Part shown: one piece after another, positions 59,157-62,550 of the stretch
Numbering within the stretch: position 1 is the first letter of the stretch
How the letters are laid out: every line of letters starts with the position of its first letter
Assembly (NCBI GenBank): GCA_017515985.1
Contig: JAFWDV010000020.1
Coordinates: 1 to 64,000, forward strand
Length of the DNA stretch: 64,000 nucleotides
Origin: Clostridia bacterium
GTDB lineage: Bacteria; Bacillota; Clostridia; TANB77; CAG-508
Direction: 5' to 3'
Program-made: the position numbers and the translations under genes
Notes under the pieces: model-generated
Databases searched by the model: none
What the model was told of the DNA's origin: nothing
What the model saw: only the letters and a program-made list of their open reading frames with translations

Positions 59157-59202
59157 TTTACCAATATGTCTAATTGACTTTTCTGGTAACTGAGTGTAAT
59201 AT
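59157..59202 (+). promoter_or_regulatory. Operator-like inverted repeat and promoter of the double-HTH regulator
   Basis: TTTACCAA at 59157 and TGGTAA at 59184 bracket ATTGACTTTT. TTGACT (59174-59179), 17 bases, TAATAT (59197-59202) form a promoter that overlaps the right half-site. Near-identical to 62518-62550. Autoregulation by the gene just downstream is likely. Confidence 0.75.
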
Positions 59203-59280
59203 CATTACAAAAGGTACAAAACAATTAGAAAGGAGATTTAATTTAGCTATATGCACTTTGGCTAGATTATATATAAAGCT

Positions 59281-60657
59281 ATGAATTTCGGAGATGAACT
59301 AAAAAAATATATGAAAGAGCTTGATTGCTCTACAAAAGATATATGTAAAATTTCAGGGCTTTCCCCTACACTTATAAGTAGATACTTGAATAATAAAAGA
59401 TGTCCTAAAGCAGACAGTATTTATATGAAAAATATAATTGATAGCTTGTACGCAATTTCACAGCAAAAAGGTATAAATCTTTCAAAAAAATCGATATCTG
59501 AAAACTTAATATCTGCACTAAACAACGACGAAATTGATTATGAAATATTTGTTACGAATTTTAACACATTACTTGATGAACTAAAAATCTCAACTGTAGA
59601 TTTATCAAAATCTCTGGGCTATGACACATCATTCATTTCAAGGATAAAGAATAAAGAAAGACGTCCAGCAGATTTAGAAAGCTTTATTGAAAAACTTTCG
59701 TGGTATATTTCTAATAACTACAATGATATAGATCAAAAACAAAAGATTTCATCGTTATTTGGGTGTGATATACATATATTAAATGATAAAGATCAATATT
59801 CAAAAATTGCATATACGTATATCACAAGCTCACATGCACCTAAAAATGATGATATTGAAAAATTTTTAACAAAATTAGATACATTTAAACTAAGTGACTA
59901 TGTCAAAACAGATTTTAACAAAATAAAAATTCCTACTACTCCAATTCTGTTAAAAAATAGTAAAACATTTTACGGCGTAGAAGGTCGAAAAAAAGCAGAA
60001 GGAGAATTTTTAAAAATAACACTTCTTTCAAAAAGCAAAGAACCTATATTTTTCTATAGTAATCTTCCAATTTTAAAAACTGGTGAAGATGAAACCTTCA
60101 AGAAAAAATGGATTTTAGCAATAACTATGTTACTAAAAAGAGGATTACATCTGAATATTGTTCACAATGTAGATAGACCTTTAAATGAAATGCTTATGGG
60201 ATTAGAATGCTGGATTCCAGTCTATATGACAGGTTTAATATCGCCATATTATTTTGAAACACCTCCATCAAATTTCTTTTTAGGGTCACATTGTGTTTCA
60301 GGCTCTGTCTCGATGTCAAGCGAATGTTTAAAAAATAACGAAGACAAAAGCAGATTCTATTTGACAACAAAAAAAGATGAAGTTGAATTTGCAAAAGAAA
60401 AGGCATCATACATGCTAAAAAAAGCCAAACCGTTGATGAAAATCTTTAAAGAAAATGAAATTAAAGAGCTTGATTCTTTCATGAAGAAACAAGATAAATC
60501 TCGTATAAAAAATGTAGAAAAAGAAATGTTTACTAACATAGATTTTAGCATCTACGACGACGAATGGATTATGATTAACAAAAAAAATTCACCTGAAATT
60601 CATTTTGTAATTTACAATAAGAAACTAATATCAGCAATAAAAAATTGGATAAAATGA
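59281..60657 (+). CDS. Regulator with two N-terminal XRE-type HTH domains
   Basis: 458 residues. Residues about 1-55 (LDCSTKDICKISGLSPTLISRYLNNKR) and 90-140 (LKISTVDLSKSLGYDTSFISRIKNKERRP) are two lambda-repressor-like helix-turn-helix units. The remaining 300 residues contain no named domain I recognise (KEPIFFYSNLPIL, ECWIPVYMTGLISPYYFETPPSNFFLGSHC, and a charged C-terminus); a ligand or stress sensor is possible. AAAGGAG precedes the ATG by about 40 bases, so the start is uncertain. Its site is repeated upstream of the surface protein at 60741, which makes that a likely target. Confidence 0.75.
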   Translation: MNFGDELKKYMKELDCSTKDICKISGLSPTLISRYLNNKRCPKADSIYMKNIIDSLYAISQQKGINLSKKSISENLISALNNDEIDYEIFVTNFNTLLDELKISTVDLSKSLGYDTSFISRIKNKERRPADLESFIEKLSWYISNNYNDIDQKQKISSLFGCDIHILNDKDQYSKIAYTYITSSHAPKNDDIEKFLTKLDTFKLSDYVKTDFNKIKIPTTPILLKNSKTFYGVEGRKKAEGEFLKITLLSKSKEPIFFYSNLPILKTGEDETFKKKWILAITMLLKRGLHLNIVHNVDRPLNEMLMGLECWIPVYMTGLISPYYFETPPSNFFLGSHCVSGSVSMSSECLKNNEDKSRFYLTTKKDEVEFAKEKASYMLKKAKPLMKIFKENEIKELDSFMKKQDKSRIKNVEKEMFTNIDFSIYDDEWIMINKKNSPEIHFVIYNKKLISAIKNWIK

Positions 60658-60663
60658 AATTTT

Positions 60664-60713
60664 GGGGACGGAGGAAAAATTTTTCCATTGCGGAAATTTT
60701 TTCCTCCGTCCCC
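60664..60713. repeat. GGGACGGAGGAAAAATTT-type palindrome
   Basis: GGGGACGGAGGAAAAATTTTT, a short loop, and its complement ending CCTCCGTCCCC. A T-run follows on both strands. Placed between the convergent regulator and surface-protein genes, it can terminate both. Confidence 0.9.
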
Positions 60714-60740
60714 AAATTTTTTTCTTTATAATATCAGAAA

Positions 60741-62450
60741 TTAATCATTTTTCTTTTTATTTCTTATAGCCCAAACCATAACTGCAGAAGCTATAGCAAC
60801 GATTCCTACAAATAATGCAACCATATCACCTGCTTTTGGTGAATCTGATTTTTTACCATCTCCCTTTGTAGCAATTGCATAATTAGAGAATGATTTTGTT
60901 TTAAATGTAATTGTATTTGTTGCTTCATCATATGATTCAATCTTAATTACTTCATATTCTTCACCATCGTGAATATTGTGAACTATAACTATATCATCAG
61001 CTGTTAATCCATCAGCTAATTTAAGTGTTATTGTAGCTTCTTTGTCTAATTCATCAATCTTATTAGACCAAACATCTTCATCATCGTCTTTACCTTTGTA
61101 GAATACTTGGAATAAATCAATATCTAAAAATGTTTTAACACTGTAATCACCTGCAGCATCTTCAAATCCTTTGATTTTATCAGCTGGTAACTTTACATCG
61201 TTAACTGTTAACTTGGCTGTTCCTCCATCAAGTGCATTTCCAAGAGTTATCGTTCCACCTGTAACAGTCTCAGAATCTGTGTCCAACACATCTTCAATCT
61301 TTTTAAATTCTGCCGCAAAATGAACATTTGTATCTGGCATTATATACTCATATTGATTTGTTGTTTCCTGAGGCTCTAAATCAAAGCCATTAGCTTTTAC
61401 ACCGGTTAATTGATATCCATACTCTGGCACAAACTCAAATATAACTTTGCAATTTGGATTTACCAATACCCATCCCATTCCATTACTTTCATCTATGCCG
61501 TATTGATTTCCACGTTCACCTATATAACTTTCTGGCGGTAATAAATTTCCATCCACATCATAAACAGCAATTACTCTTGCTGCACCATGCTGTAATAACA
61601 TATCTTCGTCATATTCTGGATTTGTTTCGTCAGCTCCAACATTTGCCCATATAATCGTATGTCCAGTATTTTCAGTTTGAACACCTGTACCTGTAATTGT
61701 ATATTTAGTAGCACCTGGTACTGTAATAGTATATTCATCTCCATTATTGCCTACACTTACACCTGGAGAATTTCTATTATATTTTGTTCCATTAATCGTA
61801 AATTCATGGACTTGATTTGTTAAAAAAGGAACGCAAAATCTAATTATATTATTTTCCTCAGGATTGACAGTTCCAGCATTTTCAATTCTTCCCGCATAAG
61901 AACTTGGTACTTGTCCTTCCACTTCATCCATAACATTTACATCATTTATCCACATATATTCCTGTGCATTAGTGAAATTTACATCAAATTCAATTGTATC
62001 TGGTCCACCAACATTACCTTGCTGTTCGTTTCCACCTTGTTGTTGCCCAGCATAATCTTGCACTTGTACGTTTTGAGCAGAATTTATTATAGTTTCTACA
62101 GATAATGGATTTCCATTCATAAATAACTCAAAAGCATTGCCAGAATTAAAGTTTAATGTAACTGGCTCCCCCCATGTTATTACCATTTCAATATTATTAC
62201 CATTTTGTGAAACTGTAAATCCACCAAAATCTATGTCTTGATTTACAGGTACTGGATCTACATATTGACCGTCAATTTTTAAATGATTTCCATCAACCAC
62301 CATAGTATGCTGTGCCGTTGCATTTGGATCAATATTAAATACTATTGTATATGGCTCTACTCTTGCTCCAACCTTAGACATACACACCGATAAAACCATT
62401 ATTGCAATTACAATCATCGCACTAAGGCCTTTACTTATTTGTTTTTTCAT
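60741..62450 (-). CDS. Large surface protein with SPKAG sorting-like end
   Basis: 569 residues: signal peptide (SAMIVIAIMVLSVCMSKVGA), then beta-rich repeats (YTIVFNIDPNATAQHTMVVDGNHL, IEFDVNFTNAQEYMWINDVNV, InlB/Bacterial repeat-like VIFEFVPEYGYQLTGVKANGFDL ... YIMPDTNVHFAAEF), a C-terminal DUF-like domain (TITLKLADGLTADDIVIVHNI) and an anchor: SPKAGD, hydrophobic helix, RNKKKND. SPKAG resembles the (S/P)PKTG signal of class B/D sortases of Clostridia. The ATG at 62450 has GGGAGG upstream. A probable regulatory site lies about 70-100 bases upstream. Confidence 0.75.
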   Translation of the reverse strand: MKKQISKGLSAMIVIAIMVLSVCMSKVGARVEPYTIVFNIDPNATAQHTMVVDGNHLKIDGQYVDPVPVNQDIDFGGFTVSQNGNNIEMVITWGEPVTLNFNSGNAFELFMNGNPLSVETIINSAQNVQVQDYAGQQQGGNEQQGNVGGPDTIEFDVNFTNAQEYMWINDVNVMDEVEGQVPSSYAGRIENAGTVNPEENNIIRFCVPFLTNQVHEFTINGTKYNRNSPGVSVGNNGDEYTITVPGATKYTITGTGVQTENTGHTIIWANVGADETNPEYDEDMLLQHGAARVIAVYDVDGNLLPPESYIGERGNQYGIDESNGMGWVLVNPNCKVIFEFVPEYGYQLTGVKANGFDLEPQETTNQYEYIMPDTNVHFAAEFKKIEDVLDTDSETVTGGTITLGNALDGGTAKLTVNDVKLPADKIKGFEDAAGDYSVKTFLDIDLFQVFYKGKDDDEDVWSNKIDELDKEATITLKLADGLTADDIVIVHNIHDGEEYEVIKIESYDEATNTITFKTKSFSNYAIATKGDGKKSDSPKAGDMVALFVGIVAIASAVMVWAIRNKKKND

Positions 62451-62517
62451 TTGTTTTCCTCCCTTATTCCTTTTTATAAACACAATGTTATCACAACGAT
62501 TTTTTTATTTGTACCTA

Positions 62518-62550
62518 TTTACCAAAATTGTCATTGACTTTTTTGGTAAA
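62518..62550. promoter_or_regulatory. Operator-like inverted repeat upstream of the surface protein gene
   Basis: TTTACCAA (62518-62525) and TTGGTAAA (62543-62550) bracket ATTGACTTTT. It matches 59157-59189 with one base insertion and a few substitutions. GGTA motifs recur nearby (AGGTAAAAA at about 62560, GTACC at 62511). Confidence 0.75.

Follow-up and report, generated by a model that had tools for sequence, protein, structure and literature searches.

How is the display of a surface protein controlled in a gut bacterium, and can the answer be read from the DNA around its gene? Most of these gut Clostridia are uncultured, and little is known of which adhesins they expose at what time; a cassette in which regulator, site and target are conserved together makes the question testable. 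The window analyzed here, a stretch of 64,000 nucleotides from a gut bacterium, contains two similar inverted repeats in front of a gene for a double helix-turn-helix (HTH) regulator and a gene for a surface protein, respectively. The original prediction was that one regulator controls itself and the surface protein through these sites, perhaps as a binary switch. From comparison of sequences, we propose that the regulator is a dedicated local transcription factor that activates the adjoining surface gene and, in the home order of the host, represses itself, a reading to which we assign a probability of about 0.72. The features concerned are as follows.

59157..59190, plus strand: predicted operator 1, TTTACCAATATGTCTAATTGACTTTTCTGGTAAC, with a 5-base GTC/GAC centre, in the regulator promoter; from alignment with site 2 and the sites of relatives.
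59174..59202, plus strand: predicted sigma-A-type regulator promoter, with -35 TTGACT (59174-59179), a 17-base spacer and -10 TAATAT (59197-59202).
59281..60657, plus strand: 458-residue tandem-HTH regulator, with HTH1 at about 3-62, HTH2 at about 87-146 and an uncatalogued C-terminal domain at about 190-458; from Pfam, AlphaFold2 and homologues.
60741..62453, minus strand: 570-residue surface protein, the predicted target; an open reading frame for a protein that has a signal peptide and, C-terminally, an SPKAGD sorting signal; homologues adjoin the regulator and occur in 5 other genomes of the genus.
62485..62493, minus strand: predicted extended -10 of the surface gene (TGATAACAT), 28 bases from the edge of operator 2.
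62518..62550, minus strand: predicted operator 2, TTTACCAAAATTGTCATTGACTTTTTTGGTAAA, with a 3-base GTC/GAC centre, upstream of the surface gene; best match in the genome.

As originally described, the regulator and the surface gene converge in the window. The surface protein starts with MKKQISKG and a hydrophobic run and ends in SPKAGDMVALFVGIVAIASAVMVWAIRNKKKND, as read from the sequence, and it combines all four sorting features: signal peptide, C-terminal motif, hydrophobic stretch and positive tail. Sortases are encoded in the same genome. On the contig of the surface gene, the minus strand at 15317-18853 holds several sortase matches, one of them fragmentary with two in-frame stops, in what appears to be an old or decaying sortase cluster. 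Between the convergent stop codons lies a strong hairpin (60660-60725, GGGGACGGAGG...CCTCCGTCCCC), probably a two-way terminator; a similar GGGACGG hairpin is found near the regulator of a relative (L010). On the other side of the regulator, a short divergent gene (58725-59021, up to 98 residues, no Pfam match) has a perfect TTGACA-17-TATAAT promoter with an upstream TG (59116-59088); site 1 lies well upstream of it, off the -56 distance described below.

What do the two repeats tell on their own? The match reported between 59157 and 62518 is borne out: 28 of 32 aligned bases are identical, with one extra base (a gap; best local alignment, score 22), and both sites have the imperfect palindromic form TTACCAAAATTGTCA-n-TGACAATTTTGGTAA. 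Against 30 random 64-kb sequences, the best scores of site 1 averaged 16.6 and peaked at 20; taken alone, the likeness of the pair exceeds chance only modestly. Site 2 reads TTTACCAAAA-TT-GTCA-T-TGAC-TT-TTTTGGTAAA and is identical on both strands at nearly every position, and site 1 has the same outer arms (TTACCA/TGGTAA) and inner arms (GTC/GAC) around a centre that is two bases longer. The signal is carried by the whole palindrome of 31-34 bp, including the inner GTCA/TGAC pair that was absent from the original prediction. The outer arms were rejected as a motif of their own, since their counts are those of chance, both for TTTACCAA alone (9 in the window, 5.9 expected) and for TTACCA-N14-30-TGGTAA (5 matches genome-wide, 7 for the reversed control). 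In a scan of the window with a half-site matrix built from other genomes only, site 2 ranks first at 24.3 bits (random 64-kb maxima: mean 10.3, largest 21.1); site 1 reaches only 7.4 bits and rank 4, because of its longer centre. With a full-site model, sites 2 and 1 are the two best non-overlapping matches in this genome (32 and 16.3 bits; next 14.8), and the further TTTACCAA sites anticipated near other sorting-signal genes did not materialize there. The chance statistics of the window pair are insufficient, and the case therefore rests on relatives.

Within the genus, the palindrome is conserved and co-occurs with the regulator. The regulator is present in 5 of 16 genomes, one copy being decayed with stops, and the surface protein adjoins it in all four genomes with an intact copy. 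The layout is convergent in the window and L009 and divergent in L010; in L011 the pair is joined by a class B sortase and another surface gene. The inner core is shared by palindromes that precede the surface gene in L009, L010 and L011 and the regulator in L011. Across one whole genome (G005), TGTCA-N0-3-TGACA matches only three times, in the regulator promoter and in those of two surface-protein genes, the third match lying on a separate contig, where the second surface gene is represented by its 5' part. The full-site model, to which all four intact-regulator genomes had supplied training sites, gives best scores of 24.5-32 bits in these four and at most 17.7 bits in the 12 genomes without an intact regulator. 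When each genome is left out of the half-site matrix, the surface-gene site still ranks first in the window and L009, as does the shared site in L010, and both sites come out on top in L011 and in L040, which belongs to another genus. The short core TGTCA-N0-3-TGACA was discarded as a site in itself, because genus-wide it yields extra matches without outer arms, most of them in or beside unrelated genes (contexts examined: L053-L057, L059-L064).

Two genomes, G015 and G007, retain the surface protein (54% identical) without the regulator. The gene order of G009 is kept on both sides in G015, minus the regulator gene and the palindrome, and the gap between the surface gene and the preceding gene is only about 65 bases: a natural deletion, in which regulator and site were lost together. 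G007 has neither regulator nor site; its promoter, read by eye, is TTTACA-17-TACGAT with an upstream TG. Separately, a stop-broken regulator in G001 (L012:7961-9983) adjoins only a short surface-protein remnant with a sorting signal, and this cassette appears to be decaying.

Does the association extend beyond the genus? Regulator homologues occur in 11 of 385 genomes of the order and in 19 of 391 of the class. Nearly all close homologues adjoin a surface protein, often together with a class B sortase, in convergent as well as divergent layouts, and the neighbours of strong homologues are secreted or anchored: fn3/Big_2 proteins in L042, sorting-signal proteins in L040, L041, L043, L045 and L046, SLH and BspA-type LRR proteins in L086 and L088, and an LRR protein in L089. 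No surface neighbour is evident in L047, L048 and L090. The divergent gene in L047 and L048 encodes a membrane-anchored protein of a family that is also found behind the L141 sortase and in L045 (L045:9167-10336; L047:8419-9543; L048:8260-9390; L141:9559-10683; 374-389 residues, C-terminus ..YERVYDTDTGEIYKA.NGF..). The L045 gene of this family has a predicted operator of its own, and by its recurrence the family is likely to be a further member of the regulon. The palindrome lies upstream of the regulator, the surface gene or neighbour, or both, in L009, L010, L011, L058, L040, L042, L041, L045, L047 and L048, and in other families (L086-L089) it takes the form TTGGCA-n-TGCCAA, upstream of the regulator or its neighbour. 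Among the distant homologues L090-L102, a matrix scan and a search for palindromes de novo found no shared motif.

Conceivably, the palindrome might be recognized by another regulator encoded elsewhere, with the linked HTH protein doing something else. Binding by the linked protein is something we infer from the pattern, and three loci with homologues (L043, L044, L046) have no site that scores by the matrix. The strong sites of the genus, however, are found only in genomes with this gene and always close to it, and the core varies with the lineage of the regulator (TTGTCA in the home order, TTGGCA in L086-L088), which makes a regulator encoded elsewhere very unlikely. In L046 (6661-7893), the open reading frame as read lacks the first HTH, and no scoring operator lies nearby.

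Equally, the palindromes might not be protein sites at all, and might instead act as RNA or DNA hairpins, either as terminators of upstream genes or as attenuators. They do fold well: the RNA of site 2 at -12.2 kcal/mol (z -4.6), that of the L011 surface site at -20.6 (z -7.9), and the single-strand foldback of both window sites outdoes nearly all shuffles; moreover, the site lies directly behind another gene in L009 and L011. It is nevertheless the sequence that is kept and not pairing alone, as the GTCA/TGAC core attests. The site falls on the -35 (regulator) or upstream of the -10 (surface gene), hence outside the transcript, and between divergent genes (L010, L045, L086-L089, L142) there is no gene to terminate. 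Since the site also tracks the presence of the regulator, we consider a role as a hairpin most unlikely. An Rfam search returned no element and no riboswitch.

Where does the palindrome sit relative to the promoters? Two fixed geometries are found. In the home order, regulator promoters (the window, L011, L040, L042, L047 and L048) have the operator centred on the -35: the inner half-site TTGACW serves as the -35 hexamer, and a spacer of 16 or 17 bases leads to the -10. The claim that one site lies over the regulator promoter thus holds, site 1 overlapping TTGACT-17-TAATAT with TTGACT doubling as the inner right half-site. In L010 and L086-L089 the shared site lies off the regulator's -35, and autorepression is therefore not universal. 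At the promoters of neighbouring genes, a -10 of at least 3.4 bits lies at a distance of 41-43 bases, counted from where the right half-site starts, in 14 of 16 sites, and in 11 of 13 once close pairs are dropped. The corresponding maxima in 20,000 random rotations of the same rows are 10 and 8, a test that covers the choice of offset and not that of score, the -10 scan having been adjusted following an initial inspection of these very promoters. The operator centre at these genes lies near -56, and at about -56 in the window. Two loci found after the geometry had been noticed provided a small blind test. In L142, from an unused genome, the top match is a perfect 31-bp palindrome (30.4 bits) in the gap from which regulator and surface gene diverge, and TGCTATAAT follows at 28 bases downstream, precisely where predicted; in L141 the top match falls in the correct intergenic stretch and is weak, at 9.3 bits.

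The sign of regulation is where the main rival enters: the regulator might bind both sites and repress both genes, the surface gene being turned on by release. Cro/CI-type HTH proteins are often repressors, the operator covers the regulator's own -35 and the surface operator abuts the -35, and the surface gene of G007, which lacks the regulator, has the promoter noted above and no operator. The site of the neighbouring genes, by contrast, lies outside the core promoter, with a centre constant near -56 over many genera, as is usual for activators, whereas a repressor would be freer to cover the -10, the -35 or the start; many of these promoters also have poor -35 hexamers. Repression of both genes thus seems unlikely to us, and activation of the surface gene is the reading we prefer. 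The surface promoters of L011 and L089 have a fair -35, and there repression could still operate.

What, then, of the binary switch? That one regulator governs both genes agrees with the conserved neighbourhood, the palindrome at both promoters, the joint loss and the fixed promoter geometry, so that self-control and control of the surface gene through two sites gain strong comparative support. The switch is unsupported: an operator over the regulator's own -35 in the home order favours negative feedback. A true binary switch could arise if recombination at the sites inverted or moved a unit that contains both genes, and two related palindromes do flank the pair, which is convergent in some genomes and divergent in others, with joint loss of regulator and site in G015. 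Yet no recombinase is encoded in 52-64 kb, and the combination of linked recombinase and inverted site pair that would mark an invertible switch is thus missing; L010 and L142 have a single shared site; a fixed promoter distance would be meaningless for recombination; and no relatives were found in plasmid and viral collections. We give recombination next to no credence.

The regulator itself carries two stretches of HTH sequence with Pfam matches above the curated cut-offs (HTH_3, 33.4 bits against 23, 4.8e-08; HTH_26, 31 bits against 22), which places it among Cro/CI (XRE)-type proteins. A Pfam scan to E 1 lists only HTH_3, HTH_26, HTH_19, HTH_31 and HTH_24; Mga-type HTH or PRD-like domains were found neither there nor in the distant homologues. 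AlphaFold2 modelling from five sequences gave a usable model of residues 1-180 (pLDDT about 70-96) that supports both HTHs, an overall pLDDT of 59.8 and a poor model of the C-terminal domain alone (45.3). This domain of about 270 residues has no entry in Pfam or NCBIfam. Its last 75 or so residues, the only confidently modelled part, match NucT (Z 5.4) and the effector domain of TrmB (Z 4.7), followed by TrmBL2, Zucchini and Nuc, with low Z throughout, and the resemblance to PLD/TrmB folds is suggestive only. The catalytic motif HxK(x)4D is absent from the regulator. Foldseek against the PDB with the whole model gave nothing at E 0.001, the listed matches including SinR and C.BclI, and a PDB search by sequence gave nothing significant. 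A literature search in a limited collection, and hence weak evidence, did not turn up a paper on this family.

How might such a protein act? What the sequences show is the site, its conservation, its two promoter geometries and its co-occurrence with the regulator; we infer not only binding but also the contacts, the sign of regulation and the existence of a signal. We envision that a dimer binds the 31-34 bp palindrome and that the two HTHs of each subunit probably contact the two parts of a half-site, TTACC outside and TTGTCA inside, about one helical turn apart, because the protein has two HTHs and the half-site two conserved blocks, separated by about nine bases. Regulator bound at the surface gene, just upstream of the -35 and centred near -56, would recruit RNA polymerase to a promoter whose -35 is weak and whose -10 is extended. 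At the regulator gene itself, polymerase would be excluded by way of an operator that covers the -35; such negative feedback would result in a steady level of regulator and not in a bistable switch. A signal sensed by the C-terminal domain may set DNA binding or activation. Judged by promoter geometry and by the pairing of regulator and site in relatives, activation of the surface protein by the regulator is very probable, as is, in this group, a restraint of the regulator on its own gene.

In a broader perspective, we find it rather probable that these proteins form an undescribed family of clostridial local activators, combining a tandem Cro/CI-type HTH with an uncatalogued, perhaps PLD-like, sensor domain. 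Each would control one linked surface protein, or a cassette of surface protein and sortase, through a conserved 31-34 bp operator, activating its target from -56 and, in one order, repressing its own gene at the -35, and regulator and operator would be gained and lost as a unit. A regulator family that has no Pfam or NCBIfam name beyond its HTH thereby gains a testable operator, a promoter geometry and a list of targets.

How does this system compare with known ones? Cro/CI (XRE)-type regulators share with it the type of both HTHs, the palindromic operator and the overlap with the own promoter; unlike them, the window regulator has two HTHs per chain and a long uncatalogued effector domain, and its operator of 31-34 bp has two parts per half-site. 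The likeness to TrmB/PLD-like effector domains concerns the last 75 or so residues, has low Z values and comes without the catalytic motif. Clostridial sortase-B-type surface proteins under dedicated regulation are also known from Clostridioides difficile, where SPKTG sortase B substrates are reported to be controlled by cyclic di-GMP (PMC4591827); in the window, with no riboswitch found, control appears to run through a linked transcription factor instead. A further parallel is PclR of Streptococcus pneumoniae, which binds upstream of the pclA core promoter, with a footprint from -169 to -68, and thereby activates the gene (PMC9276737). Like PclR and other stand-alone activators of the Mga/AtxA type, our regulator belongs to the size range of about 460-490 residues and is encoded beside a surface-protein gene (PMC9276737). 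It lacks a Mga-type domain by Pfam and is therefore not placed in the Mga/AtxA/PclR family, and its system differs from that of PclR in using a compact palindrome, at about -72 to -41, to which the home order adds a copy on the regulator's own -35. By analogy, it would nonetheless resemble the PclR/Mga-type local activators in function.
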